A stretch of 64,000 nt of DNA from a virus, in IMG/VR virus record IMGVR_UViG_3300046787_000099, positions 1 to 64,000 of that record; one strand, given 5' to 3'. Numbering within the stretch: position 1 is the first letter of the stretch; each line of letters begins with the position of its first letter. Below, one piece after another: positions 342-22,304 of this stretch. Made by a program: the position numbers and the translations under genes. The notes beneath the pieces were generated by a model that was not told the origin of the DNA, made no database searches, and saw only the letters and a program-made list of their open reading frames with translations.

Positions 342-713
342 TTAGTCGTTACCCCAGAAAGATAAGTATGTTACTCTAGTTGCATCACTAAAACATAGTT
401 GAACAGTGTGTGCAGTATTTTCAGCAGTATACGTATGTTCTATATCTACAGAATTACCAGTAGTAATAGCACCTGTAGTTGTGTTACCATCACCCCATGT
501 AGCAGTGTATGTTATATCTGCTGATGATTCAACAGTCATTCCAAAGTTAAGTCCTCCTGATGTAGTATCAGCTACAAAGCTAATGCAGTTTGGATCCTCT
601 GCAGGTTGACCAATATTATATACAACTCTGGTCAAATACTCTAACTGCTTAGAGATTTGCCACAACAGATTTTCTTCTGTTCCCCAACCTATTTGTCTAG
701 ATGGTATAGCCAT
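342..713 (-). CDS. Small virion adhesin subunit with PKD-like domain
   Basis: This 123-residue protein begins with an amphipathic segment (IGWGTEENLLWQISKQLEYL) of the kind seen at the attachment end of small phage fibre proteins. From about residue 50 it has a PKD-like Ig fold: the WGDGNTTTG strand-turn and the HTYT motif are diagnostic of PKD repeats. PKD domains are beta-sandwich spacers in extracellular proteins. There is no signal peptide, consistent with a virion protein. It is the first gene after a Bacteroidota-type promoter, and its end reads TYLSFWGND, which resembles the start of a leucine-rich repeat continued in the next gene. The domain call is good; placement in the virion is inferred from context. 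Confidence 0.7.
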   Translation of the reverse strand: MAIPSRQIGWGTEENLLWQISKQLEYLTRVVYNIGQPAEDPNCISFVADTTSGGLNFGMTVESSADITYTATWGDGNTTTGAITTGNSVDIEHTYTAENTAHTVQLCFSDATRVTYLSFWGND

Positions 714-5815: not shown

Positions 5816-5947
5816 TTATCTACCTTGCCCTCTGTATTTTCTTTTAGTTGCATTTGCTTTTGGTCCAGATGTTTTAGCATGCTTGCCTTTGCGTCTTGTT
5901 CCAAATACAATCTTCTTAGATTCTGCAGATCCTTTTGCCTTTGCCAT
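5816..5947 (-). CDS. 43-residue very basic protein
   Basis: This short frame starts at an ATG (5945-5947) that overlaps the endolysin stop in a TAATG arrangement and ends at TAA (5816-5818). It encodes 43 residues, about a third of them Lys or Arg, and ends in KYRGQGR. The overlap with the endolysin, the start position and the biased composition argue that it is real. A nucleic-acid-binding or virion-packaged peptide is possible; I do not know its function. Confidence 0.7.
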   Translation of the reverse strand: MAKAKGSAESKKIVFGTRRKGKHAKTSGPKANATKRKYRGQGR

Positions 5948-6831
5948 TATACAAGTAGTTTATAATATTCATTAAAATGTTTAATACGATCTGGTAAACC
6001 AATGGTTCCACCATTTACTCTCTTTGTTACAGCAGTCACTGTAGCTACGTCAGCCCCTTTATCACAAATAGCCCAAAGCTTGTTTGAGTTAAAGAAGAAT
6101 GCTGCTGATGCTAATGGATACTTAGTTGCTACTAAATCTGGGTTAGCCATAATATCTTCTGGTACAGTTTTGTCAAATAAACTATAGTTGCTTTTACCTG
6201 TCAGCTGGATATATCCTCTTCCCCGATGTGCAAATCCGTCTCCTGAAGATTCAGGTCCATTACCCATTCTGTTTGCGTAAACAAGGTTAGCAATCTTATC
6301 AGGCTTCTTTTCATATTGTAAAGCAATCTTAGCATTAGGAAAATACTTCTTGAATATCTTCATCAATCCTGGAGCTTTGTAGTTTAAGTTCTCACGAACT
6401 GCAATAAAGCCTCCACTCTCATGACCACACTGTGCCAGAAAGTGGGCAAGACGTAATGGTGTAGTAATACCAAAACGTGCTGCTGTGTCAGGGATCTGTG
6501 CTATTACAGCATCAGGAATGTGTCCTTTAAGATTGTGTAGTTTGAATCCTGAGTTATCAAAAATAGGTACAGCTGGTGCAGAAGGAACAAATACCGTTGA
6601 TGAAGTGACATGTGGAAGTGTTGCTACAGGAGCTTGGGGAAGAGCCTCAATACCAAGTTTAGACAATGTGAAAGGACCAGCTATACCATCAGCTTGTAAG
6701 CCGTTAGCTTTCTGCCATGCAATAAGAGCTGCTTCAGTCTTAGGACCGAACTTACCAATAGCATCTACACCAAGCTTCTCTTGAAGCTTAGTTACTAATG
6801 GACCTTCATCACCTCTTCTTAATGTTGACAT
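5947..6831 (-). CDS. Endolysin: peptidoglycan-binding domain plus GH19 lysozyme/chitinase-type domain
   Basis: A 294-residue cell-wall hydrolase without a signal peptide. Residues about 5-60 form a PG_binding_1 domain (GPLVTKLQEKLG, KFGPKTEAALIAWQKANGL, DGIAGPFTLSKLG). A Pro/Ala linker follows at about 62-98. Residues about 100-294 are a GH19-type catalytic domain: the general-acid Glu is E138 in AQCGHESGGF, followed by ENLNYKA, YANRMGN and the substrate-cleft motif GRGYIQLTGKSNY. The domain cuts glycan strands of peptidoglycan. It relies on the adjacent membrane proteins for release. Both ends overlap neighbours by one base (TAATG), placing it in a single lysis operon with the genes at 5816-8164. 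Confidence 0.95.
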   Translation of the reverse strand: MSTLRRGDEGPLVTKLQEKLGVDAIGKFGPKTEAALIAWQKANGLQADGIAGPFTLSKLGIEALPQAPVATLPHVTSSTVFVPSAPAVPIFDNSGFKLHNLKGHIPDAVIAQIPDTAARFGITTPLRLAHFLAQCGHESGGFIAVRENLNYKAPGLMKIFKKYFPNAKIALQYEKKPDKIANLVYANRMGNGPESSGDGFAHRGRGYIQLTGKSNYSLFDKTVPEDIMANPDLVATKYPLASAAFFFNSNKLWAICDKGADVATVTAVTKRVNGGTIGLPDRIKHFNEYYKLLV

Positions 6832-8331: not shown

Positions 8332-8700
8332 TTAATACTCTTGGTAAGATTTCTCTTCGATGATATCAGAACCATACTTAATGTTGATAGCTTTCTTAAC
8401 AGCAGCTCTCTTGTCATTAGTAATATAAACTTCACGAGCAAGCTGGATGAATTCATTATCAAAGTCACCTAGTCTTTCGTACTCTCTGATCTTATCCTCA
8501 ATGCTCCACAATGTTAGATTGATTGAGCACAACTCTGTGTATAACTTGTCGATTAATATCTCAGCAGGGAAAGCTTCTATCAATAATGATAGTTCTTTCT
8601 GGACATTCTTTAGCTTCTCAGGATCAGTGATCCTTTCGTTCTTTATTACGAGAATACTGATCTTATCAGCTATTTCTCCTATACTAACATCTATTAACAT
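8332..8700 (-). CDS. DUF6165-like protein
   Basis: A 122-residue helical, charged protein. Its opening, DVSIGEIADKISILVIKNERI, followed by KLKNVQKELSLL, matches the pattern I associate with DUF6165, a small family repeatedly found inside bacterial glycosyltransferase and surface-polysaccharide loci. Here it is divergent from a five-gene glycosyltransferase operon, which fits that association. Biochemical function is unknown. There are 56 bases between its start and the first glycosyltransferase ATG. Confidence 0.6.
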   Translation of the reverse strand: MLIDVSIGEIADKISILVIKNERITDPEKLKNVQKELSLLIEAFPAEILIDKLYTELCSINLTLWSIEDKIREYERLGDFDNEFIQLAREVYITNDKRAAVKKAINIKYGSDIIEEKSYQEY

Positions 8701-8705
8701 GTCTG

Positions 8706-8736
8706 TTGTTTTTTTGTGTAAATATATCTAACTTTG
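8706..8736 (+). promoter_or_regulatory. Bacteroidota-type promoter of the glycosyltransferase operon
   Basis: TTG (8706-8708), 20 bases, TAACTTTG (8729-8736). The predicted start near 8743 leaves a short leader before the ATG at 8757. It supports choosing 8757 rather than the upstream in-frame ATG at 8706, which would lie within the promoter itself. Confidence 0.65.
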
Positions 8737-8756
8737 AACAGACCAACAAAAATATC

Positions 8757-9704
8757 ATGAAAGAAGTTTGCTTAAATCTAAGCGAATGTCCAGCTCTTGG
8801 AGACCTTATCTGTGCTACACCTACAATAAGAAAACTCTCTGAAGCTTATGAACAGCCCATCACTGTGGTAAGTCCTATACCAGAACTGTTCAAGAATCTT
8901 CCATACGTCAAAGCTAGTTACAAAGCATCATCAATTGATTGGGATTATTTCAATCAACACTTCATCATGCACAACTCATTTACCAATGTAGGTAAGAAGA
9001 ATGAGAGAGGTGTAGAGATGAAGCATAACACCATGGACATACGTCAGTATCATGCTGTACAACTTGGTTTTATGTTGAACAGTCAGGAATTACATTGTGA
9101 CTACATTCCTACAGAGTATTTTAAGATTAGTATACCCCAAAAGTATATACTCATACATCCTGTACAGACATGGGCTAACAGAACGTGGGCTGCTGAGAAA
9201 TGGATGGCTCTAGTTAAGAAGCTCAATGATGATGGAGTGTATGTGGTTAGCATAGGTAAAGACAGCAGTGAGAAGGGGTTCTTCAATGTGGACAAGCCTG
9301 TATTCAACTTTGATATTCCTTATGGTATGAATCTAATGAATCAAACCAGTATATCAGACTGCTATCATCTTATAAAGAATGCAGAATGTTTTATCACTAT
9401 GGACAGTGGGTTACTACATCTTGCTGGAACTACAACCACTCCCATCATACATTTAGGTTCATCACTCAATCCTGATTTCAGAGCACCTTATAGATATGCT
9501 AGGCAATATGTTGATTACTCATATGTTAGAGGAACCTGTGATTTACAATGTTGTTCTAATATGAAGTATGGTGTAAAGGAATGGGGATCTATACAAGGTG
9601 TACAACCTTTGATAGGTTGCCTTGAGAATAAAGAAACGTTTGAATGTCATCCAGAAGTAGAAGAAGTTTATGAAGAAGTTATTAATCGTATCACCTCACT
9701 TTAG
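8757..9704 (+). CDS. GT9 (heptosyltransferase-like) glycosyltransferase
   Basis: A 315-residue GT-B fold enzyme. N-terminal acceptor half: GDLICATPTIRKLSE near residue 16, the GT9 start motif. C-terminal donor half: YILIHPVQTWANRTWAAEKW, and FITMDSGLLHLAGTTTTPII, the nucleotide-sugar-binding strand-loop of ADP-heptose transferases. The C-terminus has a Cys-rich stretch (GTCDLQCC and later GC...FECHP) reminiscent of the iron finger of TibC-type heptosyltransferases. The likely reaction is sugar transfer, probably heptose, to a glycan or protein acceptor. The next gene overlaps its end by 35 bases, so the operon is tightly coupled. Confidence 0.8.
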   Translation: MKEVCLNLSECPALGDLICATPTIRKLSEAYEQPITVVSPIPELFKNLPYVKASYKASSIDWDYFNQHFIMHNSFTNVGKKNERGVEMKHNTMDIRQYHAVQLGFMLNSQELHCDYIPTEYFKISIPQKYILIHPVQTWANRTWAAEKWMALVKKLNDDGVYVVSIGKDSSEKGFFNVDKPVFNFDIPYGMNLMNQTSISDCYHLIKNAECFITMDSGLLHLAGTTTTPIIHLGSSLNPDFRAPYRYARQYVDYSYVRGTCDLQCCSNMKYGVKEWGSIQGVQPLIGCLENKETFECHPEVEEVYEEVINRITSL

Positions 9705-12282
9705 TACAGGAGGAGCACCACAGGTAACACTTAACAAGGTGGAACTACTCAAGGATCACTTTGATATCATGGTGGTTGAGTATTCATTCCTTGCATGGAA
9801 CTTTGTGGTTCAACGTAACAAGGTGATTGATATACTAGGTAAGAACTTTATCTCTCTAGGTGAAGATAAACTATCTGGTATCAAAGATGTGGTGGAAGGA
9901 TTCCAACCTGATGTCATATCTATGGAAGAGTTTCCTGAGATGTTCATGGGTGGCGAAGTGGCGAAGTGGCTATACTCCAAAGATAGAACATACAAGATTG
10001 TAGAGACTACACATGACAGCTCATTCAATCCTAAGGATAAAGTGTGGATGCCTGACAAGTTTGTGTTTGTTAGTGCATACAATATGTTTAAGTATGCTCA
10101 TCTAGATGTACCTATGGAGGTGATTGAATACCCTATAGATACAGAAGTGAGGATCCGTAAGTCCACTGATACAAAACATGTAGTGATTGTAGGACTCTGG
10201 ACACAACGTAAGAACCAAGGCTATGTTATTGAACTAGCTAAGAAGCTAATCAACTACGATATCAAGTTTCACTTCCTAGGTAATCAAGCAGGTAACTTTG
10301 AGAACTACTGGAAGCCATTGATGGAAGACCTACCTGAGAACTGTATAGTACATGGTGAGGTGGATAATGTTACTGAGTGGATCAAAGACTCTGATCTATT
10401 CTTGTTCCCATCTAAGGGTGATAGAGGTAACAAGGAACTTAATCCTATTGCAATTAAGGAAGCATTGAAATATCCTAGCCTACCTAAGCTAATATTTAAC
10501 TTAGATGTGTATTGCAACAAGTACAACAACTATGAAGATGTAAGCTACTTAACTGGTGATGCAACCACTGACAGTATTAACATGGTGGTTTCACTAAACC
10601 TAAAGCCCATCACCAAAGAGATTATTGTCATAGGTACATATCCTAACACTGATGTTAGATCACAGCTAACTGTTGATTGTATCACTGCTGCTAGGAAACT
10701 AGAAAGACCAATCATGCTGCTTAGTCACTATCCTGTACGTGATGATGTACAAGCAATGGTAGATTACTATGTATATGATGCACAAAATCCTCTAACACAC
10801 CACAGCTATTACAATCGTTTCACTCGTAGAACAGATGACATAACTGTAGAGATGAGAATAGAGGGTAATAGCAATCAGTCTCTTACAGTGCTAACTAATT
10901 TAGTTAATGGTGCTAAGGCTGCTAAGAGCTTTGGATTTAATAAGATGTGTTACATCACCTTTGATATCATCATTGATCCTCTTGATCATCATGAGATAGA
11001 GAAAGGATTTGCTAAGATAGATCACGAATGGAAAGCACGTCTAGCAACTCTTAACACTCCATTTGGTAAAGGTGTAAGCACCAACTGCATGTTCTTTGAT
11101 ACAAGCTTTGTTACTAAGCTGATAGATGATGTACGTGATCCAGAAGAATACAATGCCCTGTGTAAATCTATAGGGGCTCAGAACTTCTTGGAAGACTACA
11201 TGATCAAGAAGGTGGAAAGAACGTCAGGAGTATGGGTAGAGTATCCTGAAGAAGGAACATTCTTAAAGCATACAGGAGATGGTGTATCATCTAACAGTGA
11301 GTATGCTGGTATTCTTAACTATGAGAGATGGGATATTAACTACTTCTATTTCTATACATACAATGAGAATCTTTCAATGTATCACATGTATGCATACGAT
11401 AAGGACGGATATTCATTGCCTAACTATTCATTCAAGGAAAGAGAACTATATCTACAATTAGGTCATGATACACACAAAGTAGAATTAGTAGCAGATGATA
11501 ATAGTTCTACGAGAGTGTTCTTTGTAGACCAACCATCAGGTAGTATTGTAGTTAGAGAAGGAGAGCAACCAACTTACAGACCAAAGATTAAATTAGTACA
11601 TATACAAACAACACTAAACGATGATAGAGAAAGATTATCTAGAACGTCGCTGGAACAAGTACGAGATTACGGATGGGAGTACATCATCCACACGAATATC
11701 CCTTATACCAGCCTCCCACCCAAGCATAACTGTAACAGGCCACAAGCAGTCTCAATGGAGTTATTCGATGAGGATGAAGTCCAAAGAAGAGGCACAGCTC
11801 TTACACCAGCACACTACGGTTGCTATGAAGCCTTCAGGAATGCAATCCTAGCAGAGTTTGATGATTGTGACTATCTGATTGTATGTGAAGGAGATTGTTT
11901 GATAGAAGGAGATGTTGGAAAATTCATACAAAAAGTGGAGAAATGTGCTTTACTGTTGGATGATTGCAACATTAAGATTATGTCATTTGGTGATAAAGAT
12001 ACACTAGAGTTTGGATGGCCTCAGAGTCCTGTAGTTGAAGAAGTGAATGATGATATGTACATCACAAACCATTTGATAGGATTGCAATGCATTATGTTCC
12101 CAGCTAGTGTAAGTAGATCACTCAAGCATGTTCTATGTACACACAAATGGGATGCTGCTGATTTGTATTTCAATATAATATTCAGTGGTGAAAACATGGG
12201 TATTGTACATGAACGTTTGACAACACAAGCAGATGGTTACTCACTGATTGATAAACAAGAGAAGACATTCAGGAAGAAATGA
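9670..12282 (+). CDS. Three-domain glycosyltransferase fusion (GT4 / GT-A-like / GT25-like)
   Basis: An 870-residue protein. Residues about 1-320 resemble a GT4 GT-B enzyme (STGGAPQVTLNKVELL at the start, VVIVGLWTQRKNQGYVIELA, FLFPSKGDRGNKELNPIAIK as donor-binding end). Residues about 330-560 form a separate domain with GT-A-like beta-alpha pattern (IIVIGTYPNTDVRSQLTVDC). The C-terminal ~230 residues resemble LPS glycosyltransferase family 25: LTPAHYGCYEAF, then YLIVCEGDCLIEGD, matching the GC..SH..A and EDD motifs in relaxed form. Fusion suggests sequential sugar additions on one acceptor. It overlaps the next gene by four bases (ATGA). Individual family calls are by motif only. Confidence 0.75.
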   Translation: MKKLLIVSPHFSTGGAPQVTLNKVELLKDHFDIMVVEYSFLAWNFVVQRNKVIDILGKNFISLGEDKLSGIKDVVEGFQPDVISMEEFPEMFMGGEVAKWLYSKDRTYKIVETTHDSSFNPKDKVWMPDKFVFVSAYNMFKYAHLDVPMEVIEYPIDTEVRIRKSTDTKHVVIVGLWTQRKNQGYVIELAKKLINYDIKFHFLGNQAGNFENYWKPLMEDLPENCIVHGEVDNVTEWIKDSDLFLFPSKGDRGNKELNPIAIKEALKYPSLPKLIFNLDVYCNKYNNYEDVSYLTGDATTDSINMVVSLNLKPITKEIIVIGTYPNTDVRSQLTVDCITAARKLERPIMLLSHYPVRDDVQAMVDYYVYDAQNPLTHHSYYNRFTRRTDDITVEMRIEGNSNQSLTVLTNLVNGAKAAKSFGFNKMCYITFDIIIDPLDHHEIEKGFAKIDHEWKARLATLNTPFGKGVSTNCMFFDTSFVTKLIDDVRDPEEYNALCKSIGAQNFLEDYMIKKVERTSGVWVEYPEEGTFLKHTGDGVSSNSEYAGILNYERWDINYFYFYTYNENLSMYHMYAYDKDGYSLPNYSFKERELYLQLGHDTHKVELVADDNSSTRVFFVDQPSGSIVVREGEQPTYRPKIKLVHIQTTLNDDRERLSRTSLEQVRDYGWEYIIHTNIPYTSLPPKHNCNRPQAVSMELFDEDEVQRRGTALTPAHYGCYEAFRNAILAEFDDCDYLIVCEGDCLIEGDVGKFIQKVEKCALLLDDCNIKIMSFGDKDTLEFGWPQSPVVEEVNDDMYITNHLIGLQCIMFPASVSRSLKHVLCTHKWDAADLYFNIIFSGENMGIVHERLTTQADGYSLIDKQEKTFRKK

Positions 12283-12947
12283 AAGCAGACGTAATCATAC
12301 TGACAGACAATACAGACATAGAGAGAACCAAACAAACTATTGACTCTCTAAAGAATGCTGAGGATATATTCAGAATCATTCTGGTATCTACTGGTGATCA
12401 TGTAGAATATGCAGGAGTTTCTGTATATTGCCCTATACATGAACCGTTTAATTACAATAGATATCTAAACAAAGCATTCAAGTATACAATGCATGACTGG
12501 GTTGTTATCTCTAATGATGATGTAAGCTATCATCCAAGATGGTTTACTGAGATGATGAAGGTGTATAGAAAGAACTCAGACATAGAATGCTTCTCTCCTA
12601 CAGATGATGTGTTGCAGAAGCTGTGGTTTCCTGACTTATTTAGTGATGAGCAAGAGTATGTTGATGGGTATGAGGTGACAAAGATGCTACAAGGATGGTC
12701 AATCACTATCAAGAGATCAGCACTTAACTCTATACTACCACTAGATGAACAGTTTGATATGTATTATCAAGACAATGATTTTGCTGAGCTGTTAAAGAAA
12801 GAACGTATAGGTCATGCTATTGTAAGAAAAGCAAAGGCCAATCACCAACAGACACACTCAATAGGAATGCCTATGAGTGAAGACAAGCTAACAAAGTTAG
12901 CAGAAGACGAAAAGAAATTTAGAACCAAGTGGAACATATGGACATAG
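12279..12947 (+). CDS. GT2-like glycosyltransferase
   Basis: A 222-residue single GT-A domain: opening strand DVIILTDNTDIERTKQTIDSL, a DWVVISNDDVSYHPRWFTEM segment carrying the DD pair that binds metal and nucleotide sugar, and a later acceptor-side region LDEQFDMYYQDNDFAELL, typical of GT2 enzymes. It is shorter than most GT2 proteins and lacks membrane segments, so it is probably cytosolic. It sits in the middle of the operon and overlaps both neighbours. Confidence 0.75.
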   Translation: MKADVIILTDNTDIERTKQTIDSLKNAEDIFRIILVSTGDHVEYAGVSVYCPIHEPFNYNRYLNKAFKYTMHDWVVISNDDVSYHPRWFTEMMKVYRKNSDIECFSPTDDVLQKLWFPDLFSDEQEYVDGYEVTKMLQGWSITIKRSALNSILPLDEQFDMYYQDNDFAELLKKERIGHAIVRKAKANHQQTHSIGMPMSEDKLTKLAEDEKKFRTKWNIWT

Positions 12948-13951
12948 TACAAGTTGCAACAGGACTAATCACAATACCACCAAACGGTTGGGGTGCTGTA
13001 GAACGAATCATCTGGGAGTACAAGACTAATCTTGAGAACTTAGGGATGAATGTAAGTATCAAGTATCCTAACGAGGTAGAGAAGAAAGATAATCAGATTG
13101 TACATTGTCACATGGCTAATACAGCTATTGAGATGAGAGACAGAGATATCCCCTACATCTATTCTCTACATGATCACCATGCTGAATACTATGGTAAAGG
13201 GAGTGGTGTGTACAACATCAACCTAGAAGCTATCAAAGGATCTGTTATATCTATCTGTCACAGTGAACACATTGTTGATTACTTTACTGAGACAGACAAA
13301 CTGTTCTATCTACCACATGGTGTGAACACAGATTTCTTTAAGCCATCAGATAAGGTGGTACATGATCACAGCTTGTTGATGATTGCTAACAACGGTATAG
13401 CTGGTGATAGTACAATTGATCGTAAAGGATTTAGATACGGGATAGAAGCAGCTAAGAGATTGAACTTACCTATCACTATAGCAGGACCAGAGAACAACAA
13501 AGCATTCTTTGAGGGACATAAGGATCTATTGGAGTATGAAAAGTTAACTCTTAAGTTAACAAATCCTACAGATAATGAAACTCTTAAGTTATATCAAGAC
13601 CACACCATCTTCCTAGCACCATCATTCTTAGAATACGGACATCCTAACTTATCCATACTAGAAGCAATGAGTTGTGGATTACCTATTGTTGGTACATCCA
13701 ATGTTACACTACCAGGAATGTATAACCTAGTAGAGAACACAACACAAGCTGTGGTTACAGGCATACAGTTCACTTGTGGTAAGTATGGAACTGTAAGACA
13801 AGAACAACTAGATCAACGTATTAACCATGACTGGTTAGTTATCTGTAGAGAAAGACTTAGCAAGATGTACAATGCAATATCAGTAATTGGTCAGAAGTGG
13901 ACATCAGAAGATACAACACAAGCTTACATAAACACTTATGCTAAAATATAA
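12938..13951 (+). CDS. GT4 glycosyltransferase
   Basis: A 337-residue GT-B enzyme. The start motif GLITIPPNGWGAVERIIWEY is the acceptor-side loop of GT4. HCHMAN, LHDHH and LPHGVNTDFF are typical mid-protein motifs. The donor site includes the EX7E-type segment PSFLEYGHPNLSILEAMSCG. I chose the ATG at 12938 over an in-frame GTG at 12929; either overlaps the preceding stop. The enzyme probably transfers a sugar from a nucleotide donor to a growing glycan. The next gene starts 14 bases before its end. Confidence 0.85.
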   Translation: MDIVQVATGLITIPPNGWGAVERIIWEYKTNLENLGMNVSIKYPNEVEKKDNQIVHCHMANTAIEMRDRDIPYIYSLHDHHAEYYGKGSGVYNINLEAIKGSVISICHSEHIVDYFTETDKLFYLPHGVNTDFFKPSDKVVHDHSLLMIANNGIAGDSTIDRKGFRYGIEAAKRLNLPITIAGPENNKAFFEGHKDLLEYEKLTLKLTNPTDNETLKLYQDHTIFLAPSFLEYGHPNLSILEAMSCGLPIVGTSNVTLPGMYNLVENTTQAVVTGIQFTCGKYGTVRQEQLDQRINHDWLVICRERLSKMYNAISVIGQKWTSEDTTQAYINTYAKI

Positions 13952-15002
13952 TTTCTATTTGATTGATGGGTTGTTCTTTGAACTAGTGAGTGTATGGGAC
14001 AATAATGAGTACACAGTTGCCTTTGTAGAGGAGATAAATGGACAACGTATAGAATTGTATTCCACTACACTAAAGCAGGGCATGTGGATGAAATATGATA
14101 GGAGATACTTAGGTAACTACTATGTAGAGATTAGAACACAAGCAGGTGTACTGAAAGATCGAATCAGTCTATTACAAGAACTAAAAGGTAAGAAGGTGTT
14201 CATTAGCTATGAGTCTAGCTCACTAGGAGATACCATAGCTTGGATCCCTTATTGCTTAGATTTCAAGAAGAAATACATGTGTGATGTGGTTGTGTCCTCA
14301 TTCAAGAACTTCCTGTTTGAATCAGTGTATCCTGAACTAGAGTTTGTAGGTAGAGGAGAAAAAGTGGAGAACATCGTAGCAATGATAGAACTAGGATGGT
14401 TCTGGGAGAGCAACAAAGAACCTGTCAATCCTGTAACTGTACCATTACAGCAGACAGCATGTAACATATTACATCTACCATACAAAGAGATAAGACCAAG
14501 GATTGTTGATCTACCAGGAGTGCTACTAGAAAATGATAGGTATGTTTGTATATCTACAAAGAGTACAGCTGAGTGTAAGCACTGGGACAAATGGCCTGAG
14601 TTAATCCAAAGACTAAAAGATCAAGGATACAGAGTGATAGAACTATCTAAGGAAGCAGATGATTTTGGTGCAGAGAAACTAGAGAACACTTCTCTAGACA
14701 GTGTTATGAATCACCTTCGTGGATGTGAGTTCTATATAGGACTGTCTAGTGGGATAAGCTGGTTAGCTTGGGCTGTCAATACACAGGTGGTAATGATTGC
14801 TAACTTCACAGAAGCTAACCACGAGTTCGAATGCATTCGTGTAGAGAATAGATCTGTGTGTAATGGATGTTGGAACAACCCTATGTTTAGATTCAACAAG
14901 GGAGATTGGAACTGGTGTCCAGAACATGAAGATACTCCTAGACAGTTTGAATGCCATAGGAGTATCTCTGTTGATGATGTAATTAAGAAATTACCAATCT
15001 AG
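13938..15002 (+). CDS. TibC/BAHT-type protein O-heptosyltransferase
   Basis: A 354-residue protein of the autotransporter strand-loop-strand O-heptosyltransferase type. An N-terminal beta barrel-like region (about 1-75) precedes a GT9-type catalytic core: FISYESSSLGDTIAWIPY, then CISTKSTAECKHWDKWPELI, then FYIGLSSGISWLAWAV. The end has four cysteines, C308-x2-C311-x15-C327-x11-C339; the first three spacings match the iron-finger of E. coli TibC as I recall it. Known members add heptose to Ser of autotransporter passengers and assemble as dodecamers. No autotransporter is encoded here, so the acceptor is unknown; Ser/Thr-rich virion proteins are candidates. The family assignment is good. Confidence 0.8.
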   Translation: MLKYNFYLIDGLFFELVSVWDNNEYTVAFVEEINGQRIELYSTTLKQGMWMKYDRRYLGNYYVEIRTQAGVLKDRISLLQELKGKKVFISYESSSLGDTIAWIPYCLDFKKKYMCDVVVSSFKNFLFESVYPELEFVGRGEKVENIVAMIELGWFWESNKEPVNPVTVPLQQTACNILHLPYKEIRPRIVDLPGVLLENDRYVCISTKSTAECKHWDKWPELIQRLKDQGYRVIELSKEADDFGAEKLENTSLDSVMNHLRGCEFYIGLSSGISWLAWAVNTQVVMIANFTEANHEFECIRVENRSVCNGCWNNPMFRFNKGDWNWCPEHEDTPRQFECHRSISVDDVIKKLPI

Positions 15003-15674: not shown

Positions 15675-15705
15675 CAAATATAACTATAAAACTATTCAGG
15701 TGCAA
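15675..15705 (-). promoter_or_regulatory. Bacteroidota-type promoter inside the 3' end of the Thr-rich tail gene
   Basis: On the minus strand TTG at 15705-15703, 20 bases, TATATTTG at 15682-15675. The predicted transcript starts near 15668, about 12 bases ahead of the ATG at 15656. Confidence 0.6.
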
Positions 15706-16048
15706 CAGTTGTCGTAGTAGTGGTTGTACTAGGCTCTTCTGTTGTTGTGCTAGTTGTAGTTGTAGGTACTGGTGGAACATACTCTCCTGTAATAGTTAAG
15801 TTAAGTTGTTCTGCAATCCAATCCCATGCATAAGCATCTTGTGACCACTCAGCATAAGCTTCACCTGTCATAGATAAGTTACCTTGAGCAACTTGCATTC
15901 CTACATTACCATCTTCTGTTTCAGCAAACAAACCATACCAGAATGTAGCAGATGTATTCAATGTTACATTCACTGCATATGAGTTAAGGATAACTGCTTG
16001 TTGTACTACTCCGTTGTCCCATACTGGAACTGCTTCAATTGTTTTCAT
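15692..16048 (-). CDS. Small tail protein with poly-Thr C-terminus
   Basis: A 118-residue protein. Residues 1-90 form a beta-rich domain with VPVWDNGVVQQAVILNSY and an aromatic segment (YAEWSQDAYAWDWIAEQLNL). From about residue 92 it ends in a Pro/Thr linker with tracts of up to seven consecutive Thr and the recurrent VAP motif. The same linker type appears in the muzzle, head and fibre proteins of this window. No signal peptide; a virion position is likely from neighbours and composition. Specific role unknown. Confidence 0.6.
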   Translation of the reverse strand: MKTIEAVPVWDNGVVQQAVILNSYAVNVTLNTSATFWYGLFAETEDGNVGMQVAQGNLSMTGEAYAEWSQDAYAWDWIAEQLNLTITGEYVPPVPTTTTSTTTEEPSTTTTTTTVAPE

Positions 16049-16075
16049 ATTTTTTTATTTTAAAGTTACTAATAA

Positions 16076-16510
16076 TTATGGACAATATGTTTGTCCTGAC
16101 ACGATTTGTATTGATCCGTTATATCCTGCAGGTAATGTAGTTTGGTTAATTCCATTATAATAATAGAACACAGGGCTACCACTAGGTAATACATAACGTT
16201 GACCTGTACCTAATACAGGGTTTATCTTTGTCCAAGCAGCAGCACCACCAGAACAGTTATTAAGCTGATAGTATGTAGCTGCTACAGCAACTAGATTACT
16301 CTTAACAACCAATTGATTATCTGTCTTTCCTGATAAAGGAGATGTCTGAATATCTACTGTTGTTAATGCACCAAGCTTTGTCACCTCTCTATTGCTAGGT
16401 ATTCCAGGAGGTGGTATCAATCCAATCTGTATGAAGATGTTGTTGTTAACAGCATCCTGAAGATTAGCCCAGCTTACACACTGATTATTTGCTATTGTTG
16501 ACCAAGGCAT
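16076..16510 (-). CDS. Small beta-rich virion protein next to the long fibre
   Basis: A 144-residue protein whose stop lies 27 bases upstream of the next gene's ATG, and whose start is one base past the fibre stop. The sequence is beta-rich with Gly/Pro turns (IGLIPPPGIPSNREVTKLGA, GTGQRYVLPSGSPVFYYYNG) and a C-terminal Cys (SGQTYCP). No family recognised. Position directly after a long fibre is typical of tip or assembly proteins, but the sequence does not prove this. Confidence 0.55.
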   Translation of the reverse strand: MPWSTIANNQCVSWANLQDAVNNNIFIQIGLIPPPGIPSNREVTKLGALTTVDIQTSPLSGKTDNQLVVKSNLVAVAATYYQLNNCSGGAAAWTKINPVLGTGQRYVLPSGSPVFYYYNGINQTTLPAGYNGSIQIVSGQTYCP

Positions 16511-16511
16511 A

Positions 16512-19500
16512 TTATTTCAATTTAGCTTCTAACTCTTTTACTTTTTGTTCTAATAGTTGCACCTTAGCAACTAACACTTCACGATATGATAGACTTAACA
16601 AGCCATTATCATTGCTTGTTACAGCACTAGGTAATAACTCTTCTACATCCTGAGCATAATATCCAACCTCTTGCTTACCGTTCTTTACATACAACTTAGC
16701 TGTAACAGAATCAATATTCTTTACAATATAGTCATCTTGTATTAATGTCTTTATTGTCTTATCTGAACTTTCAAAGAATGATGTTGCCGTGACTGAATAA
16801 TTAAATGTTGCTGCTCCACTATTTGCAAAATTGAATACCTGTGTTCCTGTGCTAGGCACGTTTTCAGATGTTGCGTTTACCCATAAAACGAATTGACCTG
16901 ACCCACTATAATCATAACCTAAACCTGCATATTTTGTTGAATTTGAATTAAATACAAATACAGGGAATGTAGCAGTAATCATTGCCGTTCTATTCCATCC
17001 ACCTGTCATTGCGGTTCCACCAATTGCATGAATTGGTGCCTGTGGTGATGATGTACCAATACCAACAAAACCTGTTTGTGTAACATACAATTTGGTTGTA
17101 TTACCTGTTGTAATTCCAACCGCTTGATTTGCTCCATCAATAAAAACTGAACTATATTGAGAATATGAACTATTCCCCATTTGAATCCTTATTTTTCTTT
17201 TTGCGTCTGTGCTTGCTGTACCCTCTGCATAAAGACCACCTCCATCATTGAAAAATTGTAGATAATCAGATGTAACACCTAAATTAACAGGGCCACTTGC
17301 TAAAATTCTCATTCTTTCTATTGCAGTTCCGCTTGTACCTGTAAAGAATCTCGTATTATATCCAACAGGTGAAGATTTAATATCAAATTCGCCACCCTCC
17401 ATTGTAATAGTCGAACTTTCTGCAATTGAACTTCTTTCAATTACAATATCACCTTTAACGTGCAATTTTCCACTTGTTGATGTTGTTCCAATTCCAAAAT
17501 TACCTGCATCAGACATAAACATTCTTGTTGCATTATCTGCTGCATTGTTAAATCTTAATCCACTTGTTCCTGAATTTATCCACGTTGTATTTCCGCCAAC
17601 TGATCCAAAAATTTGATTTGATGGGCCATAAATATATCCATATGTGTTTGATCTACCAATATATATATTTCCGCCAAATTCAGCTTGACCGACTCCGCCA
17701 TCTAATACTATTTTTTCCGCTCCTGATGAATTATAAAAATACAACTGAACATTGTTTCCACCTGTTGTGTAAAATCCTGCTCCACGATTTCCTGCTGTAT
17801 TTGCAATATCTAGTCCAAATGATGATAAAGCATTACTTGTAAATCTACCCTTGCCAACAACATCTAATTTATATCCGGCATCTGTTGTGGTATTAATAAG
17901 CACATTTCCTGTACCCATTACATAAAACTTATTTGCAACAGTTAAATCAGCACTTGAACCATCTCCTCCTGTAATGTATAATCCAAATCTTGTTCCACCT
18001 GCATTACCATAACCAAAGTACATTTTATGTCCATTAGTCGCAGTATTATCCCAAGTGCTTAACCAATCAGAACCTGATTGATTTGAAGAAATAATAGATT
18101 GAGTTGCTGTAATACTGTTGTAAAATGTAGATGCTCCTGTAAATGAAAATGATGTTGCTATAAATGCCATCGAACGATATGCCGTTGCTGCATTATTAAT
18201 AGACTGAAAACCTACACCTGAACCATTATCATAAACATCTAAATTATTATTTGTACCTGTTCTAACTGTAAATATATTAGTTGCATAAGCTCCATTAACT
18301 CCTAATTTATTGTAAAATACTGCTGAACCTGAATTTAAGATATTAAAAAGCCTTGATGTATCTTCATAATTATTTATACCAAGTACTCCACCATTTGCTG
18401 TTGAACCACCTGTAAACAAAATATTACCATAAGCACCTGAATATAAAAATCTACTATAAGAACTACCATCAGGTTTTGTATAAATTACATCGCCAACTTT
18501 GCCAACATTTAACGCATTACCAACAGTAACTGATGATTGCGTTACAATTGTAGCATTATTTAAAATTTGCATTGCAACTGAACCTGTTCCATTTACATTG
18601 TCATTTGTTGCATTTACCCAAAATGTCATACAATTAGAATAATCATATCCAATTGCACCCCACTTTGTAGCGTTTGAATTAAAAATTAATGTAGGAAATT
18701 CAGCTTGTAATGTGACTGTCTTATTCCAACCACCTGTCATTATAGCACCACCATTAACGTGTAAAATTGTAGCAGGAGATGCTGTATTTATACCAACATT
18801 TGTTCCACTATCATAGATAATACTATTTCCAATCGTTGTGCTATTAGTAAACTTAGCTATGTAGTTTGTTGTACCAGAAATAGTTCCTGCACCACTTGTA
18901 CCACTGCTACCTGCTGCTCCATTTGCACCACTCGTGCCACTTGATCCATTAGCACCATTTGCTCCTGATGTTCCAGAGGAACCATTAGCACCGTTAGCAC
19001 CACTAGTTCCGCTAGATCCACTAGAAGCTGATGTACCACTTGAAGCACTTGTACCTGAACTTCCACTAGCACCTGCTGTTCCTGAGGAAGCAGAAGTTCC
19101 ACTACTGCCACTAGTTCCACTAGTACCAGAGCTTGCACTTGTTCCAGAGCTACCATCAGCTCCTGCTGTTCCACTACTTGCAGATGTGCCTGAAGAACCA
19201 TCAGCTCCACTTGTTCCTGAAGATCCATCTGTTCCAGTAGTACCAGATGTTCCAGTAGTTCCACTTGTTGCAGATGTACCACTGCTTCCTGACTCACCAC
19301 TAGAACCAGATGAACCATCTGATCCTGATGTAGCACTTGTACCAGACGTACCTGTAGTTCCAGAAGTTCCTGTTGTTCCTGATGTCCCCGATGTAGATGT
19401 TTCTCCTGAAGAGCCACTAGATCCTGAAGTTCCAGAACTTCCTGACGTACCAGATGTTCCAGCACTACCAGACGTAGCTGATGTACCAGAGGTTCCTGTA

Positions 19501-22304
19501 GATCCACTTGTACCACTAGTGCCTGAAGAAGCTGACGTACCACTTGTACCATCTGCACCTGATGTAGCAGACGTACCGCTAGATCCATCAGATCCAGAAG
19601 TTCCTGCTGTGCCAGAGGTTGCTGAACTTCCTGAGCTTCCACTTGTGCCAGATGATCCATCTGTACCTGATGTACCTGATTCTCCTGATGATCCGCTAGT
19701 ACCAGCTGTACCCGAAGAACCATCTGTTCCTGAGCTTCCTGATGTAGCTGATGTGCCAGAGCTACCAGAGGTACCTGAAGAACCATCACCACCCACAGCA
19801 CCAGAGATGTTTACATAGAAGAAAGAAGCTGTACCACCACCAACAACATCTGTAGGAGCATCAAATAACAATTCTCCCGTAGAAGCATTGTACGATACCA
19901 CCTCAGAGGTTTGATAGTTGTTACTATCTATTGCAATGATAATGTTTTGTCCAGGAGTGTAGGCTAAGTTTGTACCCACCATAAGACCACCTGATGTACC
20001 TAGTGTAAAGGTGGTGTTAGATGTAGTGGAGTATATATCTCCTGAAAACCCTGAAGATCCAGATGTTCCAGAACTCCCACTAGAACCACTTGTGCCAGCA
20101 GTTCCACTCGTTCCTGCCGAACCACTAGTTCCTGTTGTACCAGATGTACCTGAAGGTGCTTGGAATGTTGTTGTAGAGTATGAGTAATATGAATTACCTT
20201 CTGTATAGAATGTAAATGTTTGTGTATTGTTATATGTGTTCTCTATATAGAACTTAGCATATAAACGATCTGTAGGATCAACATCACCACCAGCCCAGAA
20301 AGCATCCACATATGCTTGCTGAGGATATCCTGTATCAGAAATAGGAGCAACACTAGTAGTGAATAATAATGTATCAACACCAAGAGCCGTGTGTTTGTAA
20401 ACCTCAATCCAGATAAGAGCTGTACCTTGAGGTCTATCACTTGTTCCATGTAAGAAGAAACTCCATAAACCTGCAGGAATACTCTCTACACCAGGCACTC
20501 CACCATCTGTAGCAAATACACCAAGCACTTGAGTTACACCAGAAGCAACAGTAAATGATGCTTCTTGTTGTACAGCAGTTGTAGGAATAGGACTCCACTC
20601 TTTGTATGTAGGAGTTCCAAATGCTGGATTAGTGTCATTAGATAGGTTGAAATAATACACCTGTCCACCAGAGATACCTGATGCACCACTTGAACCACTA
20701 GTTCCTGCTGTTGCAGAGCTTCCTGAAGTTCCTGAAGATCCATCAGTACCAGTTGTTCCCGATGAGCCACTTGTCCCACTTGATCCTGAACTACCTGCTG
20801 TACCAGATGATCCACTAGATCCTGATGTGCCACTAGAGCCATCAGTTCCTGACGAACCATTTGTACCACTAGAACCATCAGTACCCGATGATCCTGATGT
20901 ACCTGAACTAGCAGAAGTACCTGAGCTTCCAGACGTACCGCTACTTGCTGATGTACCACTTGAGCCTGAGCTCGCTGATGTACCAGAAGATGCAGAAGAA
21001 CCTGAAGAGCCTGACGTGCCTGAAGAACCATCTGTTCCAGATGATCCGTTAGTTCCTGATGAACCTGAAGAAGCACTTGTACCTGAGGAACCTGATGTTC
21101 CTGAAGAGGCAGACGTACCACTAGAACCACTAGATGCACTTGTACCTGAGCTTCCAGAAGAAGCAGATGTACCTGAACTAGCTGATGTTCCGCTAGAGCC
21201 ACTAGTGCCAGCAGTTCCTGATGTACCATTAGAACCATCTGTTCCATTTGTACCTGCTGTAGCAGAAGTTCCAGAAGATCCATTTGTTCCAGATGTACCA
21301 GAGCTTCCGTTAGTTCCTGAAGTTCCTGTTGTACCTGAAGTACCTGATGAACCATCTCCTCCTGATGCACCATCTAAGTTAACTGTCCATGATGAGTATG
21401 TACCAGATCCAACTGTTCTATTAGGAGCAGCAAATTGTAACTCTCCTGTTAATGAGTTATACGATATAACCTCACACTCTTGGAAGTTAGATGTATTATA
21501 AACAACAATAATTGATTGTGCAGGGCTGTATGCCAATGCTGTACCAATTGTTATTGTACCAGCATTACCTAATGTAAATGATGTTGTAGAAGTTGTTCTA
21601 TATCTATCTCCTGATAAACCGCTACTAGCAGAAGAACCAGATGATCCACTAGTACCTGAGGTACCTGTTGTACCTGTTGATCCATTAGTACCAGAACTCC
21701 CTGATGTGCCAGAAGTACCACGAGAACCTGAAGATCCCGATGTACCACTTGTTCCTGTAGAGCCTGATGTACCGTTTGATCCATTGTGACCAGATGTACC
21801 ATTGCTACCATTAGCACCATTGGTACCACTAGAGCCGCTTCTTCCTGATGTACCTGACGTACCCTTAGATCCAGAGATACCAGATGTACCTGTCGAACCA
21901 CTAGTACCTGAGGTACCAGCAGTGCCATAGAAATAACCTAATGTACCATCTCCTTTAACATATTGATTAGACGTTCCTCCTGTTGTACGGAATGCTAATG
22001 CTTCAATAGGTCCTTCAAGAGTTAACTTGTAGTTACCTGCAATCGTTGTATCCTTAATGAATGATCCACCTAACTCAACAGGCTGTCCTGTGCCTGATTG
22101 AACAATACCATTTTGGAATACATATCCTACATTGATCTCTTCAAACTTCTCATTGATTGATTGTAGAGCTTCTTGTAATGTATCGTTTGTATTGACACCA
22201 ATATATACCAAATTGCTTCCTTCATAGAAGACACAGTTTGCTGACAACACCACAGGACATGGAGCAGCAGAACAAATGGTAGGTGAAGTGGAAGTAACAT
22301 TCAT
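16512..22304 (-). CDS. Long collagen-like tail fibre with S74 self-cleaving chaperone domain
   Basis: A 1930-residue fibre. Residues about 1-70 are a Cys-containing attachment domain (CVFYEGSNLVYIGVNTNDTL). Four Gly-x-x collagen-like blocks made almost only of Gly, Thr, Ser, Ala and Asp lie at about 125-231, 310-541, 716-755 and 838-1138. Between them are two copies of a ~75-residue beta module (DRYRTTSTTSFTLGNAGTIT and DIYSTTSNTTFTLGTSGGLM). Residues about 1140-1830 are a stalk and head with repeats such as GNFGIGTTSTSGKL. The end is a peptidase S74 chaperone: SSDKTIK (Ser and Lys five apart), VGYYAQDVEELLPSAV, LSLSYREVLVAKVQLLE, then a coiled coil. S74 domains trimerise fibres and cleave themselves off. 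It likely recognises the host surface. Confidence 0.92.
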   Translation of the reverse strand: MNVTSTSPTICSAAPCPVVLSANCVFYEGSNLVYIGVNTNDTLQEALQSINEKFEEINVGYVFQNGIVQSGTGQPVELGGSFIKDTTIAGNYKLTLEGPIEALAFRTTGGTSNQYVKGDGTLGYFYGTAGTSGTSGSTGTSGISGSKGTSGTSGRSGSSGTNGANGSNGTSGHNGSNGTSGSTGTSGTSGSSGSRGTSGTSGSSGTNGSTGTTGTSGTSGSSGSSASSGLSGDRYRTTSTTSFTLGNAGTITIGTALAYSPAQSIIVVYNTSNFQECEVISYNSLTGELQFAAPNRTVGSGTYSSWTVNLDGASGGDGSSGTSGTTGTSGTNGSSGTSGTNGSSGTSATAGTNGTDGSNGTSGTAGTSGSSGTSASSGTSASSGSSGTSASSGSSGTSASSGTSGSSGTSASSGSSGTNGSSGTDGSSGTSGSSGSSASSGTSASSGSSGTSASSGTSGSSGTSASSGTSGSSGTDGSSGTNGSSGTDGSSGTSGSSGSSGTAGSSGSSGTSGSSGTTGTDGSSGTSGSSATAGTSGSSGASGISGGQVYYFNLSNDTNPAFGTPTYKEWSPIPTTAVQQEASFTVASGVTQVLGVFATDGGVPGVESIPAGLWSFFLHGTSDRPQGTALIWIEVYKHTALGVDTLLFTTSVAPISDTGYPQQAYVDAFWAGGDVDPTDRLYAKFYIENTYNNTQTFTFYTEGNSYYSYSTTTFQAPSGTSGTTGTSGSAGTSGTAGTSGSSGSSGTSGSSGFSGDIYSTTSNTTFTLGTSGGLMVGTNLAYTPGQNIIIAIDSNNYQTSEVVSYNASTGELLFDAPTDVVGGGTASFFYVNISGAVGGDGSSGTSGSSGTSATSGSSGTDGSSGTAGTSGSSGESGTSGTDGSSGTSGSSGSSATSGTAGTSGSDGSSGTSATSGADGTSGTSASSGTSGTSGSTGTSGTSATSGSAGTSGTSGSSGTSGSSGSSGETSTSGTSGTTGTSGTTGTSGTSATSGSDGSSGSSGESGSSGTSATSGTTGTSGTTGTDGSSGTSGADGSSGTSASSGTAGADGSSGTSASSGTSGTSGSSGTSASSGTAGASGSSGTSASSGTSASSGSSGTSGANGANGSSGTSGANGANGSSGTSGANGAAGSSGTSGAGTISGTTNYIAKFTNSTTIGNSIIYDSGTNVGINTASPATILHVNGGAIMTGGWNKTVTLQAEFPTLIFNSNATKWGAIGYDYSNCMTFWVNATNDNVNGTGSVAMQILNNATIVTQSSVTVGNALNVGKVGDVIYTKPDGSSYSRFLYSGAYGNILFTGGSTANGGVLGINNYEDTSRLFNILNSGSAVFYNKLGVNGAYATNIFTVRTGTNNNLDVYDNGSGVGFQSINNAATAYRSMAFIATSFSFTGASTFYNSITATQSIISSNQSGSDWLSTWDNTATNGHKMYFGYGNAGGTRFGLYITGGDGSSADLTVANKFYVMGTGNVLINTTTDAGYKLDVVGKGRFTSNALSSFGLDIANTAGNRGAGFYTTGGNNVQLYFYNSSGAEKIVLDGGVGQAEFGGNIYIGRSNTYGYIYGPSNQIFGSVGGNTTWINSGTSGLRFNNAADNATRMFMSDAGNFGIGTTSTSGKLHVKGDIVIERSSIAESSTITMEGGEFDIKSSPVGYNTRFFTGTSGTAIERMRILASGPVNLGVTSDYLQFFNDGGGLYAEGTASTDAKRKIRIQMGNSSYSQYSSVFIDGANQAVGITTGNTTKLYVTQTGFVGIGTSSPQAPIHAIGGTAMTGGWNRTAMITATFPVFVFNSNSTKYAGLGYDYSGSGQFVLWVNATSENVPSTGTQVFNFANSGAATFNYSVTATSFFESSDKTIKTLIQDDYIVKNIDSVTAKLYVKNGKQEVGYYAQDVEELLPSAVTSNDNGLLSLSYREVLVAKVQLLEQKVKELEAKLK
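18885..21930 (-). repeat. Collagen-like Gly-Thr-Ser-Gly triplet repeats in the fibre gene
   Basis: Four arrays of nine-base repeats encode Gly-x-x triplets, mostly GTS, GSS and GAS. They are at about 21615-21930, 20690-21375, 20045-20155 and 18885-19800. They are separated by duplicated beta modules at about 21375-21610 and 19800-20045 and a unique domain. Repeats are diverged at third codon positions. They create spurious long Pro/Leu-rich open frames on the opposite strand that are not genes. Confidence 0.95.

Follow-up and report, generated by a model that had tools for sequence, protein, structure and literature searches.

A thumbless TibC-type glycosyltransferase and a Ser/Thr-rich collagen-like fiber as a predicted enzyme-acceptor pair in phages and bacteria

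The stretch of DNA analyzed here, hereafter the window, comprises 64,000 nucleotides (positions 1 to 64,000) of the 111,973-base virus contig IMGVR_UViG_3300046787_000099 from IMG/VR. Inside its minus-strand late region lie five plus-strand open reading frames (ORFs), G1 to G5, whose neighbors overlap by 4 to 35 bp; an endolysin gene (5947-6831, minus strand) stands on one side and a fiber gene block (15692-22304, minus strand) on the other. This map agrees with an earlier note on the window, which had described five overlapping plus-strand glycosyltransferase genes against a minus-strand region. From sequence comparisons and structure models, we consider it likely that the locus encodes a dedicated enzyme-acceptor pair, in which G5 O-glycosylates Ser residues of the collagen-like tail fiber and accessory enzymes extend the glycan. 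More cautiously, we lean toward the broader reading that thumbless TibC-type enzymes and Gly-(Thr/Ser)-Ser repeats form a widespread two-part system, undescribed as far as we found, in crAss-like phages, jumbo phages, and bacteria. Its sugar donor may be altered, and in phages and bacteria it would be the counterpart of collagen glycosylation and allow Pro-poor collagen-like shafts to function.

Against the NCBI equivalog model for the TibC/AAH O-heptosyltransferases (TIGR04414; cutoff, 200 bits), G5 scores 232.3 bits and is alone among the operon enzymes in passing the cutoff; its relatives score 272 to 317 bits. Pfam assigns G5 the GT9 fold, and its sole sequence match in the PDB is TibC (4rap/4rb4; 2e-43). 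The AlphaFold model of G5 (predicted local distance difference test score, 89.6) contains the N-terminal beta-barrel and the GT-B fold and aligns with TibC 4rap at template modeling (TM) scores of 0.83/0.77, versus about 0.5 or less for WaaC-type lipopolysaccharide (LPS) heptosyltransferases. Cys 308, 311, 327, and 339 of G5 align with TibC Cys 339, 342, 358, and 370 at identical spacing, while TibC D110, T226, K230, and W305 correspond to G5 D98, T210, K214, and W275; all of these positions are invariant in 29 viral homologues. In TibC, the same four residues and four Cys are of functional importance (PMC4358343). The TibC-type enzyme with a four-Cys finger that had been claimed for G5 is thus borne out, with no loss of the iron-finger in the alignment.

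G5 also departs from TibC, in which Arg-286 contacts adenine and a beta-hairpin thumb assembles the dodecamer (PMC4358343). Arg-286 corresponds to V256 in G5, and each of the 29 viral rows has V, T, I, A, or C there; the thumb (TibC Phe-265, Val-266) is deleted. Because both features are lost, G5 is placed as a subfamily variant: by alignment and model, it is a thumbless member of the TibC/AAH family and a predicted protein O-glycosyltransferase whose sugar donor may differ from that of TibC. Of the O-heptosyltransferase proposed earlier, the family therefore stands, and heptose is a possible sugar. The likeness to TibC/AAH covers the whole-length fold, the barrel, the catalytic Asp, the Thr/Lys/Trp donor-site residues, and the Cys finger, and it extends to a partner protein that is repetitive and Ser-rich. 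TibC P300 is Ser in G5, as in AAH, which takes both ADP-heptose epimers. The differences, besides the thumb and the Val for Arg-286, are that G5 is phage-borne, is teamed or fused with a GT4 enzyme, and has as its partner a collagen-like Gly-Thr-Ser protein; no autotransporter was recognized among the window ORFs, as the earlier note had also stated. When the thumb columns are left out of the tree, the thumbed enzymes of bacteria cluster with one exception, and the viral rows mostly form a separate group among thumbless bacterial ones. A homologue on a metagenome-assembled genome (MAG) contig labeled Pacearchaeota (L059) retains the thumb and the Arg, and its finger columns are not Cys.

An alternative to a virion target is that the operon alters a glycan of the host surface (LPS core, O-antigen, or capsule), for instance to exclude superinfecting phages, with G5 an ordinary GT9 enzyme. 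G1 does belong to GT9, G2 to G4 belong to GT families common in surface polysaccharide synthesis, and phage glycosyltransferases often change host serotype. We nevertheless regard this alternative as improbable, given that G5 matches TibC over its full length, N-terminal barrel and Cys finger included, and WaaC poorly; that its presence tracks virion fiber chemistry; and that, as described below, the bacterial enzyme genes adjoin secreted-looking repeat proteins rather than LPS clusters.

The predicted acceptor has an unusual composition for a collagen-like protein. It contains five runs totaling 229 Gly-X-Y triplets, with Thr or Ser at 87% of the X positions; the Y positions are 72% Ser and only 6% Thr. 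The repeat motif gave 22 matches versus 0.0 in shuffled sequence, which excludes a chance origin. An ORF scan agrees with the earlier statement that the window encodes a collagen-like fiber and five poly-Thr proteins; the Gly-Thr-Ser collagen-like repeat is present in one ORF. TibC modifies Ser and not Thr, and one modified site lies within TSAA (PMC4358343). A Ser-only enzyme acting on G-(T/S)-S-G would fit both the preference for Ser at Y and the finding, given next, that poly-Thr is not linked to G5.

Co-occurrence was scored in 30 near-complete related genomes that had been selected through their capsid, tail, or terminase genes rather than through G5, with G5 queried by an alignment (A1) and the repeat by a DNA motif of G-(T/S)-S. 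In 19 genomes, G5 was accompanied by a collagen-like fiber with G-(T/S)-S triplets, and in the other 11 both were absent, with no discordant genome (Fisher 1.8e-8). One genome (G022), in which the strict motif score was zero and the repeat fiber was seen by inspection, was treated as discordant in the tree test. On the terminase (TerL) tree, G5 presence switches about nine times, and independent pairs on supported branches agreed with the repeat in 6 to 7 of 7 cases (median p 0.016). As controls in the same genomes, GT2 genes showed no association with G5, nor did poly-Thr (14/19 with G5 versus 10/11 without; Fisher p 0.37). Four G5-minus genomes encode collagen-like fibers of Gly-Pro-Gln/Gly-Ile-Gln triplets with 0 to 12% Ser/Thr in X/Y, which indicates that G5 tracks Ser/Thr-rich triplets and not collagen-like fibers as such. 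The earlier suggestion that the operon should co-occur with poly-Thr or Gly-Thr-Ser fibers in related phages thus held for the fibers, in 30/30 genomes and through the tree test, and failed for poly-Thr.

The association was also recovered in the reverse direction. Among viral records of at least 66 kb picked by the repeat alone from all viral contigs, 18/22 encoded a G5 relative, versus 2/22 in a comparison set picked by poly-Thr (p 2e-6; p 1e-3 with the poly-Thr set restricted to records of at least 60 kb). One of the two G5-bearing poly-Thr records is the contig of locus L019, which itself has a repeat fiber. A G5 search of 50,697 phage records returned four matches. Two of these, a phage record of 735 kb and the cultured Microcystis phage Mel-JY01, have repeat ORFs no more than 6 kb from the G5-type gene.

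Relatives outside phages were compared at 15 thumbless and 18 thumbed TibC-type loci from a bacterial/archaeal genome collection that included MAGs; about six of the 15 thumbless contigs look viral. A repeat ORF was present on the same stretch at 14/15 thumbless loci versus 0/18 thumbed loci (p 2e-8), a contrast that amounts to few events because both are related groups. The thumbless loci that do not look viral include cultured Methylobacter. In four bacterial genomes of 2.3 to 5.0 Mb, no repeat-motif match is farther than 1.4 kb from the enzyme gene. From its sequence, we read the bacterial repeat partner as a small protein whose N terminus resembles that of an exported protein or lipoprotein. 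No fusion to GT4 is seen at the chromosomal loci, and this suggests that attaching the first sugar takes no more than this one enzyme.

These loci bear on a second alternative, that operon and fiber are linked as one exchangeable host-range module without being enzyme and substrate. The two do adjoin in most phage loci, and the repeated switching of the presence label on the TerL tree resembles the behavior of a mobile module. Linkage inside a phage module, however, cannot explain a pairing in which enzyme and repeat adjoin in separate bacterial lineages, where just these two partners lie on the chromosome; in addition, viral record G038 has repeats at least 18 kb from the enzyme gene, and the association is specific to Ser/Thr triplets rather than to collagen-like fibers or GT genes generally. 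We judge linkage alone to be quite improbable. A third possibility, that virion glycosylation is aimed mainly at the poly-Thr linkers of other virion proteins, draws on the presence of poly-Thr in five window ORFs but is scarcely credible, since poly-Thr is as common without G5 as with it, just two poly-Thr-picked records carry G5 relatives, and TibC leaves Thr unmodified (PMC4358343). The dedicated virion-glycosylation system envisaged in the earlier note accordingly keeps the collagen-like fiber as its target, on the strength of the 30-genome agreement, the tree test, and the bacterial pairing, and loses the poly-Thr linkers.

Several observations weigh against G5 and the fiber being an enzyme-acceptor pair. 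TibC requires its thumb-made dodecamer and Arg-286, and G5 lacks both the thumb and the Arg, so that neither activity nor donor is to be assumed. Four of the 22 repeat-bearing records (G043, G044, G056, and G057) have no detectable G5; another enzyme or an incomplete contig is possible. Because operon and fiber adjoin in phages, linkage could explain part of the co-occurrence. Finally, the viral records are metagenomic, and their CheckV completeness is not given.

From the evidence as a whole, we infer the repeat as acceptor, the choice of Ser, and the roles of G1 to G4. In the proposed mechanism, G5 would act inside the infected cell and attach a sugar to Ser of the fiber shaft. Within this Pro-poor shaft, the most likely site would be Ser at position Y of the Gly-(Thr/Ser)-Ser triplets. 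The GT4 enzyme G4 would work together with G5, given that the two form one protein in many phages, and G1, G2, and G3 probably lengthen or vary the glycan. The product would be a heavily O-glycosylated shaft, which might be stiffened or protected in this way rather than by the proline-based stabilization of ordinary collagen-like fibers; its likely purpose would be to stabilize or shield the Pro-poor shaft or to alter adsorption. The thumb may serve to build a ring around a folded beta-helix, and a linear repeat would need no such ring.

A search of the open-access literature gave no description of a TibC-type enzyme in a phage or paired with a collagen-like acceptor. Bacillus BclA, a collagen-like protein of the spore surface, carries O-glycans on Thr of GPT triplets; it resembles the predicted fiber in bearing O-glycans on Gly-X-Y residues of a prokaryotic collagen-like protein and differs in the modified residue and triplet, in its place on the spore, and in its enzymes. 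Mimivirus L230, a collagen lysyl hydroxylase/glucosyltransferase, transfers glucose onto hydroxylysine (PMC4691112). There, as predicted for G5, a virus glycosylates its own collagen-like proteins with an enzyme that it encodes, whereas here a TibC-type enzyme, Ser/Thr repeats, and bacteriophages take the place of a hydroxylase-glycosyltransferase and hydroxylysine. Mycobacteriophages also bear glycans on virion proteins, as predicted here; as far as the summary of Freeman et al. 2023 in PMC12619734 goes, these sit on the C termini of capsid and tail tube subunits, in contrast to the collagen-like fiber shaft and the different enzyme family considered here. The pairing would supply a concrete enzyme-acceptor hypothesis for many phage glycosyltransferases without an assigned purpose, tie an adhesin-modifying enzyme family to virion fibers, and account for an otherwise odd Ser/Thr-rich, Pro-poor collagen-like repeat. 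Since enzyme and repeat occur together in cultured phage Mel-JY01 and in cultured Methylobacter strains, the hypothesis is directly testable, and the short repeat, combined with its enzyme, could serve as a tool for glycosylated collagen-like polymers.

A search of genome contigs for G5 relatives gave no matches with a single-protein query and 40 loci with an alignment query; 45 viral contigs encode G5 relatives. Closer relatives have the same plus-strand block (DUF6165 / G1-G2-(G3)-G4-G5) ahead of Ser/Thr/Gly-rich fibers. In more distant relatives, a single long protein holds GT4 and ends in G5, which marks GT4 plus G5 as the constant core in phages and the other parts as variable; these long fusions sometimes add a methyltransferase, pyruvyltransferase, or FkbM domain. 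The Mel-JY01 protein WWT39291.1 (PP395634, L586:4750-8430), annotated as "methyltransferase FkbM," is actually a GT4 plus TibC-type fusion scoring 317 bits on TIGR04414. ADP-heptose synthesis beside this gene was considered and rejected, as the cytidylyltransferase-like neighbor is no recognized heptose enzyme.

Among the families that the earlier note had named for profile search, GT9, GT4, and TIGR04414 were recovered in the operon and GT25 was not. G2 has no Pfam match to GT25 (PF01755), and hhalign gives no support either. A fold search placed human COLGALT1 (TM 0.3; root mean square deviation, 14) and LH3 high among the GT-A matches of G2, a weak similarity in a part where the model is also weak; residues 316-870 have no sequence family assigned. 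A true GT25 (PF01755) is encoded at L057:6126-7487, where its neighbors are a repeat fiber and a fusion of GT4 with a TibC-type enzyme; the contig is phage-like and was binned as bacterial.

PHROGs matches identify portal and head proteins of the record, and its terminase is closest to that of Leptolyngbya phage Lbo-JY46, followed by Cellulophaga and crAss-like phages; we call this freshwater phage crAss-like. The features of the locus are collected in Table 1. G1 probably starts at ATG 8757 rather than at TTG 8706, where the open frame begins, and the divergent DUF6165 neighbor is likely an accessory to the operon. The operon had been credited with its own promoter. A sigma-70 scan of the 56-bp gap upstream of G1 found no promoter, and the Bacteroidota-like TAACTTTG, also located upstream of G1 in related loci L007 and L008, occurs across the window at the frequency expected by chance; the claim is one of the weaker ones.

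Table 1. Features of the glycosyltransferase operon and the collagen-like fiber gene (window coordinates)
Feature	Position	Strand	Evidence or remark
DUF6165 protein (PF19662)	8332..8700	-	Divergent neighbor; kept beside operon in most unfused phage loci
Divergent intergenic gap, holding TAACTTTG at 8729-8736	8701..8756	.	Possible Bacteroidota-type -7 element, without statistical support
G1, GT9 family	8757..9704	+	PF01075, 62 bits
G2, 870 aa, N-terminal GT4, then more predicted alpha/beta domains	9670..12282	+	Pfam
G3, GT2 (PF00535)	12279..12947	+	Pfam; missing from some related operons
G4, GT4	12929..13951	+	Pfam; G5 partner, one fused protein with G5 in other phages
G5, thumbless TibC/AAH-type (TIGR04414) protein O-glycosyltransferase, predicted initiating enzyme	13938..15002	+	Profile, sequence, fold
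Codon of G5 D98, counterpart of TibC catalytic base D110	14229..14231	+	Alignment to TibC
G5 iron-finger, codons of C308, C311, C327, C339	14859..14954	+	Alignment to TibC
Collagen-like fiber, 1930 aa, predicted acceptor	16512..22304	-	PF01391 2.3e-71, 9 stretches; weak C-terminal Peptidase_S74 chaperone match
Fiber part with five G-X-Y runs (229 triplets)	18885..21926	-	Triplet count

In its other half, the genome holds a second plus-strand glycosyltransferase pair (a phrog_2644 glycosyltransferase and a GT2) at genome positions 104400-105841 (L049:6400-7841). A second tail-like block with poly-Thr lies at the contig end, and near it a phrog_4417 protein of 338 aa is encoded on the minus strand (L049:11487-12503). 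Small proteins encoded at opposite contig ends (window 342-713 and L049:12533-12937) have alike N termini, MAIPS[RK]QIGW..., and are probably paralogous virion proteins.

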